From Bosea sp. 124 (GTDB lineage: Bacteria; Pseudomonadota; Alphaproteobacteria; Rhizobiales; Beijerinckiaceae): 64,000 nucleotides of DNA. The notes under the pieces were generated by a model. The model was given only the letters and a program-made list of their open reading frames with translations. It had not been told where the DNA came from and made no database searches. Within the stretch, counting starts at the first letter, position 1, and every line of letters starts with the position of its first letter. Location: positions 2,807,001 through 2,871,000 of the forward strand of contig NZ_PZZM01000001.1 of NCBI RefSeq assembly GCF_003046175.1, in the 5' to 3' direction. Of this stretch, positions 32,934 to 35,823 are shown piece after piece. Both the position numbers and the translations under genes were made by a program.

Positions 32934-33008
<75 letters not shown>

Positions 33009-33526: not shown

Positions 33527-33788
33527 GGGCCTGATGTGTCCGTCCCGTAAGGCCTGTCTTCAAGGTTCGAGGCTGCCGGCCTGGCGACCCTCTTCCCAAT
33601 TCTCGTTCCCGGCGCGAGCGCCGTTTCCGGCGCCAGCGCCGGCAGGGTTATCGACCCATCCCCGTGCGTGGAACCCTACGTTTCTATAAGGCACCACTAT
33701 GGTAAACAACGGGTGAATCCCTCGCCGATGCCCGTTGCGCGCCCATGGCGCTTCAACCCCGCCGCTTTGTGTGCTTGTGTTCAGGGAG

Positions 33789-34709
33789 ATGAGCGCCCTG
33801 TCCGCCCCCTTTCCGCCCGGTCCCGAGGATGTCGTCGCCGAGATCGAGCGGCCGTTCACGCTGCACCAGCCGGCGCTCCATATCGTGCCGGTGGTCGTCG
33901 ACGTGCCCCATGCCGGCCGGCGTTACCCGCGCGCCTTCGTCGAACGGGCGAGGTTGCCGCTGCGCTCGCTGCGCCGCTCGGAGGATGCCTATGTCGACCG
34001 GCTCTTCGCGCGCAGCGTCGCGCTGGGGGCGCCGCTGCTCGTCGCCGAATTCCCGCGCGCCTATCTCGACGTCAACCGCGAGCCCTATGAGCTCGATCCG
34101 CGCATGTTCGACGGCAGGCTGCCGCCCTTCGCCAATACGCGCTCGATGCGGGTCGCAGGCGGGCTGGGGACGATTCCGCGCATCGTCGGCGACGCGCAGG
34201 AGATCTATTTCGGGCGGATTCCGGTGGAGGAGGCGCTCGCACGCATCGACGGGCTGTATAGGCCCTATCATGCCGGCCTGCGCGATCTGGTGCAGCGCAC
34301 GCAGCGCTCCTTCGGCACCTGCATCCTGGTCGACGCGCATTCGATGCCGTCGAGCGGGCTCGACCGCGACGGGCTGGCCAAGCCCGACATCATCCTGGGC
34401 GACCGTTTCGGAACCAGCGCGGCGGGTTACGTCACCGACATCGCCGAGGCGGCGTTCGCGAAGCTCGGCCTCACCGTCACGCGCAACCGGCCCTATGCCG
34501 GCGGCTTCATCACCGAGCATTACGGCGCGCCGAGCACCGGCGTGCACACGCTGCAGATCGAGATCAACCGCGCGCTCTACATGAACGAGGCGACGCTGAT
34601 GCCCCATGCCGGCTTTTCCGCGCTGGAACAGGCGATTTCCTCGGCGATGGCGGATTGTTTCGCGCGCTGGAGCGGCTGGCTCGACGAGTTCAGGCAGGCG
34701 GCGGAATAG
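33789..34709 (+). CDS. N-formylglutamate amidohydrolase family protein
   Basis: A 306-residue zinc-dependent hydrolase of the N-formylglutamate deformylase family (HutG-like). The N-terminal VVVDVPHAGRRYPRAF carries the first His. SEDAYVDRLF and DAHSMPSSG follow, and the C-terminal LQIEINRALYMNE closes the domain. No other histidine-degradation genes are near, so the natural substrate may not be N-formylglutamate. The ATG at 33789 has AGGGAG immediately before it, which is unusually close; the TTG start at 33735 is an alternative. Confidence 0.85.
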   Translation: MSALSAPFPPGPEDVVAEIERPFTLHQPALHIVPVVVDVPHAGRRYPRAFVERARLPLRSLRRSEDAYVDRLFARSVALGAPLLVAEFPRAYLDVNREPYELDPRMFDGRLPPFANTRSMRVAGGLGTIPRIVGDAQEIYFGRIPVEEALARIDGLYRPYHAGLRDLVQRTQRSFGTCILVDAHSMPSSGLDRDGLAKPDIILGDRFGTSAAGYVTDIAEAAFAKLGLTVTRNRPYAGGFITEHYGAPSTGVHTLQIEINRALYMNEATLMPHAGFSALEQAISSAMADCFARWSGWLDEFRQAAE

Positions 34710-34742
34710 GCGCCTCGCGCGACCGTTGCCGCCGCAACCCAG

Positions 34743-34868
34743 AAAAAAGGGCCGCACACTTGCGTGGCGGCCCAAGTCTAGGGAGGAAACGCCCAAGGAG
34801 GGCAACGAAGGCTTGAAGTGATCGCCCCTTCGCAGTGCACAATATGACAGTGCAGTGCGAAAAAGCAA
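34743..34868 (-). ncRNA. Probable trans-acting sRNA, MmgR/alpha-r8-like, with promoter
   Basis: A complete small transcription unit sits between two + strand genes. On the minus strand: -35 TTGCTT (34868-34863), 16-base spacer, -10 CATATT (34846-34841), start expected near 34836. The about 94-nt RNA has a 5' hairpin CGAAGG/CCTTCG (34832-34806), a small GCCC/GGGC hairpin (34803-34791), an unpaired TTTCCTCCCT (34789-34780) and a terminator GGGCCGC/GCGGCCC with six T (34773-34743). As I recall, the unpaired 10-mer is the conserved core of the MmgR (alpha-r8) sRNA family, an Hfq-dependent regulator of polyhydroxybutyrate. Family assignment rests on memory. Confidence 0.75.
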
Positions 34869-35040
34869 GTGGCCTGACCAAAATTCCGGACGAGCGAGCG
34901 GCGTATGGGGCATGCGCCCAGCGCAGGACAGAATATGATGCAGGCCGATCGCCTTGCCTTTCGCGGGCCGGCCGCCCATCAGGGTCATGACGAGAGAGCG
35001 GCGGCGCGACAGACCGTTGCGCAAGGATGCGGGGGCTTTG

Positions 35041-35823
35041 ATGAGCGCGGTCGATTTCGGGGCTTTCGTCGCGGAGCTGGCGACGCAGTCCGGCCAGGCA
35101 ATCCTGCCGTTCTTCCGGGCGCATCACGCGATGGAGGACAAGTCGGCGGGAGGCGTGTTCGACCCCGTCACCGAGGCCGACCGTGCCGGTGAGACCATCA
35201 TGCGCCATCTGATCAAGCGCAGCTTCCCCGCCCATGGCGTACTTGGCGAGGAGTTCGGCAACGAGAACACGGACGCAGAATACGTCTGGGTGCTCGATCC
35301 GATCGACGGCACCCGCGCCTTCATCTCCGGCATTCCGGTCTGGGGTACGCTGATCGGGCTCGCGCGCGACGGCACGCCCGTCTACGGCATGATGCACCAG
35401 CCCTTCACCGGCGAGCGCTATTCCGGCGACGGGCGCGAGGCGCGTTATGAAGGGCCGGGCGGTGCGCGGACGCTGCGGACCCGCCAGGTCGCCGGCCTAT
35501 CCAGCGCGACGCTGATGACGACATCGCCCGGGCTGTTCCGGAACGACGAGGCGCTGGCCTATCAACGGGTCGAGAGCCAGGTCCGTCTCGCCCGGTATGG
35601 CTGCGACTGCTACGCCTATTGCATGCTGGCCTCGGGCCATGTCGATCTCGTCATCGAGAGCGGGCTCAAGCCCTACGATATCGTGGCGCTGATCCCGATC
35701 ATCGAGGGCGCCGGCGGCATCGTCACCTCATGGGACGGCGGCAGCGCCGCCGGGGGCGGGCGCATCCTCGCCGCCGCCAGCAAGCCGTTGCACGAGGCCG
35801 CGCTCGCTTTGCTCGCCGGCTGA
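35041..35823 (+). CDS. hisN: Histidinol-phosphatase (inositol monophosphatase family)
   Basis: A 260-residue Mg-dependent phosphatase of the IMPase fold. Metal-site motifs are LGEEFG and WVLDPIDGTRAFISG, with PYDIVALIPIIEGAGG at the C-terminal site. The AFISGIPVWG stretch is characteristic of HisN histidinol-phosphatases rather than inositol phosphatases, so it likely performs the penultimate step of histidine synthesis. Upstream in-frame ATGs at 34954 and 34987 add a basic, unconserved stretch; 35041 fits the family. Its last 96 bases overlap the 3' end of the gene on the other strand. Confidence 0.88.
   Translation: MSAVDFGAFVAELATQSGQAILPFFRAHHAMEDKSAGGVFDPVTEADRAGETIMRHLIKRSFPAHGVLGEEFGNENTDAEYVWVLDPIDGTRAFISGIPVWGTLIGLARDGTPVYGMMHQPFTGERYSGDGREARYEGPGGARTLRTRQVAGLSSATLMTTSPGLFRNDEALAYQRVESQVRLARYGCDCYAYCMLASGHVDLVIESGLKPYDIVALIPIIEGAGGIVTSWDGGSAAGGGRILAAASKPLHEAALALLAG

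Follow-up and report, generated by a model that had tools for sequence, protein, structure and literature searches.

An alpha-r8/MmgR family small RNA of Bosea with two candidate PhaR operators in its promoter

The window (the whole stretch of DNA analysed, 64,000 nucleotides of Bosea sp. 124) contains a gap without a gene between an N-formylglutamate amidohydrolase (FGase) gene ending at position 34709 and an inositol monophosphatase family gene whose earliest reading-frame start is at 34954. The minus strand of this gap carries what appears to be a small-RNA unit, and the promoter, the body of about 94 nt, the two CCTCC stretches and the terminator with six T that a sequence-only reading had described are located as claimed, as is the gap itself. 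A tRNA gene is present elsewhere in the window (32937-33008, minus strand; Rfam RF00005, 68.2 bits). The features of the locus are the following:

33735..34709, plus strand: FGase gene, the convergent syntenic marker, start codon uncertain (PF05013, E 6.1e-73)
34743..34836, minus strand: small RNA of the alpha-r8/MmgR family, about 94 nt, predicted start near 34836 (Rfam RF00519 and fold)
34743..34773, minus strand: intrinsic terminator, stem-loop and T6 (fold and sequence)
34780..34789, minus strand: unpaired seed 10-mer UUUCCUCCCU / TTTCCTCCCT (sequence and fold)
34791..34803, minus strand: hairpin 2, GCCC UCCUU GGGC (fold; corresponds to the 5' helix of the Rfam model)
34805..34833, minus strand: 5' hairpin, GCGAAGG...CCUUCGU (fold; mostly beyond the Rfam model)
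34831..34839, minus strand: candidate PhaR-type operator box 2, TGCACTGCG, spanning the predicted start (matrix 12.9 bits, second-best of the window)
34841..34846, minus strand: -10 element CATATT (sequence; CATATT is recurrent in many orthologues)
34851..34859, minus strand: candidate PhaR-type operator box 1, CGCACTGCA, in the -35/-10 spacer (matrix 15.6 bits, best of the window; conserved in Bosea)
34863..34868, minus strand: -35 element TTGCTT (CTTGCT) (sequence; CTTGAC/CTTGCx here in many orthologues of other families)
34954..35823, plus strand: inositol monophosphatase family gene (the 'suhB' neighbour), start codon uncertain (PF00459, E 4.2e-52)

The -35 and -10 elements are separated by a spacer of 16 nt on the minus strand, and the terminator consists of a stem at 34773-34749 followed by T6 at 34748-34743. 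One of the two CCTCC stretches is located in the stem/loop of hairpin 2 and the other is the 10-mer TTTCCTCCCT at 34789-34780, which was said to be unpaired between hairpins and indeed falls into a 17-nt open stretch between hairpin 2 and the terminator in the predicted fold, being unpaired in both the MFE and the centroid structures. The fold of the 94-nt RNA has a predicted energy of -39.2 kcal/mol (z -3.4), a stability that is reached by none of 200 shuffles. Generic scans for sigma-70 promoters and for terminators returned no site at this element, which by our reading is due to a -35 element that matches TTGACA at three of six positions (the scan minimum is four) and to a bulged terminator stem. 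The unit is nevertheless accepted as real, as its conservation across Bosea outweighs the empty scans: in 35 Bosea orthologues aligned on the 10-mer, conservation per position amounts to 0.8-2.0 bits from -80 to +50 bases relative to the start of the 10-mer and to 0.1-0.3 bits in the flanks, and this conserved block from the -35 element to the terminator is the predicted transcription unit. The GAAGG...CCTTY pattern of the 5' hairpin is found in 32 of the 35 FGase-linked Bosea copies (copy A); the MAFFT alignment of 25 distinct A copies disrupted this hairpin and a claim of covariation is therefore withheld.

A covariance search, the check proposed along with the sequence-only reading, assigns the element to Rfam family RF00519 ('suhB, Makes More Granules Regulator RNA (mmgR)') with 67.6 bits against a gathering score of 41 (E 8.7e-12), the match extending over 34734-34810 of the minus strand and covering the model completely (1-77). 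Judged by its sequence, the element is a Bosea member of alpha-r8/MmgR (RF00519), a family that was already known and that had been correctly recognised. Features of the alpha-r8 family include the 10-mer UUUCCUCCCU and an FGase neighbour (PMC12559287), and the Bosea locus presents UUUCCUCCCU single-stranded and 3' of a weak hairpin, a Rho-independent terminator (the stem with T6 that the generic scan missed) and linkage to a convergent FGase gene (the PF05013 neighbour). MmgR of Sinorhizobium meliloti (SmelC689, alpha-r8, RF00519) shares the family model, the unpaired anti-Shine-Dalgarno core and the terminator; it is induced in an NtrC-dependent manner, associates with Hfq and limits the synthesis of PHB and of phasin. 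The S. meliloti RNA is 77 nt in size, in contrast to the approximately 94 nt predicted for the Bosea RNA with its stable 5' hairpin.

The own genome holds two alpha-r8 copies, one in the window (C1:2841734-2841810) and one at C1:4784745-4784818. Matches to RF00519 over the cut-off occur in 51 of 61 genomes searched and in 65 of 142 genomes sampled across the class, both counts including the own genome. From the 61-genome search 91 over-cut-off matches were read, all but the last 10, which score 54.5 bits or less, and 89 of these 91 loci were oriented, L163 and L171 lacking the exact core. Among 37 Bosea genomes copy A is present in 35 and an unlinked second copy (copy B) was retrieved by filter in 31, to which an additional B copy, L025, recognised by eye may be added. 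Copy A is convergent with FGase in all 35 cases and has the monophosphatase gene within the fetched stretch in 32 of them; it is the setting beside such a monophosphatase gene that gave the family its suhB name (PMC1273637). Among 80 named FGase loci, 55 contain an exact core together with a T-run and 25 do not; the cores in this set number 56, every one of them on the strand opposite to FGase. Four genomes have alpha-r8 copies in tandem, spaced by about 200-310 bases (G037:C3:285873 and 286182, i.e. L007 and L169; G059:C1448:185006 and 185228; G054:C45:12273 and 12475; G093:C7:54432, 54660 and 54948). Bosea also has extra, diverged alpha-r8 copies with the exact 10-mer (L168, L170, L172, L174, L175 and L176), four of which are not preceded by a PhaR box; L172 and L176 have one at other positions.

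What the present analysis adds beyond the sequence-only reading is the operator pair in the promoter and its conservation. In S. meliloti the core of the PhaR/AniA site is YGCRNYGCR, and PhaR binds the mmgR promoter at such a site in vitro; PhaR shifts the mmgR promoter and loss of PhaR raises MmgR (PMC12542648). The S. meliloti promoter shares the PhaR/AniA box with Bosea, the one listed there being CAATTGTGCACCGCAGCATTA, and the operator is represented in Bosea by two motif matches, which are putative sites. S. meliloti has a sole copy of the RNA with one box, whereas Bosea has a second copy and two boxes 20 bp apart. A matrix of 21 columns, built from 25 sites of EMSA-positive S. meliloti promoters after omission of the site of mmgR, two irregular ones of exoH and two rows repeating a site on the other strand, ranks boxes 1 and 2 first and second among 63,980 positions in the window, the next-best position scoring 10.7 bits. 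All 35 Bosea A copies have at least one box and 32 of them have two or more, where 0.10 per 80 bp would be expected from the local background, and in 28 of the 35 a pair is spaced by exactly 20 bp; locus L143, with an upstream stretch too short for the regex window, was scored as zero in the Bosea box count. The longer consensus TGCRNYGCASMA, which stems from footprints in Bradyrhizobium (PMC6201568), fits only three of the 35 A copies. A conserved dyad in the mmgR promoter is already reported in a review, so that the wide conservation of the box is not claimed as new to print.

In 30 of the 31 copy B loci retrieved by filter a single box occupies a constant position, a count that is partly built in as the filter demanded GCAGCA, which overlaps the end of the box; the count becomes 30 of 32 when L025, which has no exact box, is included. 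The conservation of the B box has two possible causes, since the motif there is also part of the stem of the RNA. The Bradyrhizobium consensus TGCRNYGCASMA fits 27 of the 31 B copies, and the S. meliloti matrix gives the box of the own-genome copy no more than 4.2 bits. A conserved palindrome is located upstream of the -35 element of this copy (L001, C1:4784745-4784818, plus strand), about 75-110 bases before the 10-mer. It approximates RGGNCAGC-N3-GCTGYCC (for example AAAAAAGGGCAGCGCTGCTGCCCTTTT in L152), and a loose pattern for it finds a match in 28 of the 31 B loci of Bosea; no such block was seen in copy A of Bosea.

Boxes of the PhaR type are also found before alpha-r8 genes across the class, for which 86 loci were fetched (three of them just below the cut-off; the over-cut-off tandem copy G093:C7:54948, which has no locus of its own, was omitted) and 82 were oriented, the exceptions being L225, L273, L291 and L297. 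In genomes that encode phaR, a regex finds the box before 31 of the 41 FGase-linked copies and before 23 of the 36 that are unlinked, with a background of 0.086 per 90 bp, and does not find it before the remaining 10 FGase-linked copies. With the matrix, scores above the 99th percentile of a set of 1016 control windows are reached by 31 of 41 FGase-linked and 25 of 36 unlinked copies in phaR-encoding genomes, and likewise by 35 of 35 Bosea A copies, 27 of 31 Bosea B copies, 12 of the 14 FGase-linked copies from other families and one of nine leftover unlinked copies. Genomes devoid of phaR provide five loci only, too small a contrast to weigh the link with phaR, and the box is present there before none of three FGase-linked and one of two unlinked copies by regex (one of three and one of two by matrix). 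In the 80 named FGase loci at least one box precedes 55 of the 56 cores. Over the 142 genomes RF00519 and PhaR (PF05233) occur together in 60, the RNA occurs alone in five, PhaR alone in 20 and neither in 57, a co-occurrence with a Fisher p of 1.1e-16 that takes account of neither descent nor genome size.

The own genome encodes phaR, the PHB synthase gene phaC and hfq, and has three matches to the phasin family. About 41 kb separate the small RNA from the phaR gene (C1:2882864-2882983, L206), whose reading frame is preceded by a modest PhaR-like box (7.9-8.6 bits). At least two boxes about 30 bp apart are present in the main phasin promoter in all 30 Bosea loci read (the best 30 of 41 genomes), and a second phasin gene of the own genome likewise has two. 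The case for direct pairing with phasin mRNA is more mixed. The motif AGGGAAGAAAC just before the phasin start, one mismatch away from the complement of GUUUCCUCCCU in the RNA, is found in 15 of 30 Bosea loci (again the best 30 of 41). The phaP1 gene matches the complement of the seed at 11 of 13 positions and 48 crude window genes, each credited with the best of up to 12 starts, reach at most 10; the predicted phaP1 duplex of -14.7 kcal/mol falls inside the range of these 48 genes (median -11.6, best -18.1). The exact complement of the 10-mer occurs at five sites in the own genome, two of which are the RNA genes themselves, and by our reading of the ORF lists none of the other three exact AGGGAGGAAA sites is at a ribosome-binding site. 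One exact complement lies between apparent genes for the ribosomal proteins L18 and S5 (positions 1501-1510 of locus L114, C1:4341097-4341106). In a set of 37 genomes the complement pattern outnumbers its reversed control in the majority of rows. From the boxes, the PHB gene set and a phasin pairing that is kept in half of the loci, control of the RNA by PhaR is likely, a PHB-linked function is likely as well, and direct pairing of the RNA with phasin mRNA is only possible; the two promoter boxes hint that the RNA serves carbon storage in Bosea too.

The reading preferred here, with a probability of roughly 0.78, is that of an FGase-linked, trans-acting sRNA of the alpha-r8/MmgR type which is controlled by PhaR and damps PHB-linked genes in an incoherent feed-forward loop. 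The RNA would be transcribed alone from a housekeeping-type promoter and end at its intrinsic terminator. In the absence of PHB, PhaR, a PHB-sensing repressor, would occupy the two operators over the spacer and the start and keep the gene low, and most likely it represses the RNA until PHB accumulates. The PHB granules would then draw PhaR off the DNA and the phasin genes and the RNA would be switched on together. Together with Hfq, the unpaired UUUCCUCCCU of the RNA could cover ribosome-binding sites, and the RNA would in this way damp what the release of PhaR turns on. Transcription, PhaR binding, Hfq dependence, the targets and the sign of the effect are what we infer for this scheme, and the PHB role is assigned by analogy with S. 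meliloti and Caulobacter.

Caulobacter crescentus also provides the strongest alternative. Its alpha-r8 RNAs SisA-D share the 10-mer seed and occur as several siblings per genome, and SisA, which shares the FGase link, uses the same 10-mer to repress many transporter mRNAs (PMC12559287). The Bosea RNA could likewise mainly repress nutrient-uptake and metabolic mRNAs and possibly be sponged on starvation, with PHB as a side branch. This is compatible with PhaR control and in keeping with a strong phaP1 pairing that is retained in only half of the Bosea loci read, and it is possible, if rather unlikely. The sisA-D genes have transporter-rich targets, a sponge, CrfA, and reportedly no common upstream motif (PMC12559287), and the absence of such a motif and the many transporter targets count against the preferred reading. 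Against the SisA-like alternative stand the two PhaR-type boxes in 32 of 35 Bosea A promoters and the boxes found class-wide. The exact AGGGAGGAAA sites beyond the RNA genes, which lie away from ribosome-binding sites, also speak against it as far as exact sites are concerned.

The two readings that would deny the element its identity as an alpha-r8 RNA are both very improbable. Its position between the two genes, and the fact that the family was first noticed upstream of suhB (PMC1273637), might suggest a leader or terminator acting in cis on the inositol monophosphatase or FGase gene, but the element is on the opposite strand and has a conserved promoter and a T-run of its own, no T-run follows the stem on the plus strand, the other copy of the own genome sits among different genes, and the discoverers of the family likewise judged against a cis-element (PMC1273637). 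A mere resemblance to MmgR by another family of CCUCC-type sRNAs (NmsR/RcoF, betaproteobacterial toxic sRNA or SorY) has in its favour weak matches of RF02278, RF02877 and RF02651 on the same stretch and the hairpin, UCUCCUC-type open stretch and terminator that NmsR/RcoF and the betaproteobacterial toxic sRNA share with it, but all three models stay below their gathering scores (24.9 against 50, 19.7 against 52 and 16.7 against 111), unlike RF00519, and NmsR/RcoF (19.7 against 52) and the betaproteobacterial toxic sRNA (24.9 against 50) are rejected.

A broader proposal, with about an even chance of being right, is that the PHB sensor PhaR already controlled the ancestral alpha-r8 RNA and that this control is shared across the class and was kept through duplication. 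In Bosea, copy A would then have two PhaR operators around its -10 element and copy B one near the start, along with a distinct palindromic operator ahead of its -35 element. Two almost identical RNAs would in this way bring the storage-polymer signal and a second one to bear on a single anti-Shine-Dalgarno seed. The link between MmgR and PHB comes from one species so far, and the Caulobacter relatives of the RNA have been linked to nutrient uptake. The candidate PhaR operators on the alpha-r8 promoters of many families, together with those on the phasin promoters of Bosea, make an ancestral role in PHB sensing testable, and with it the question of why many genomes retain several alpha-r8 siblings.
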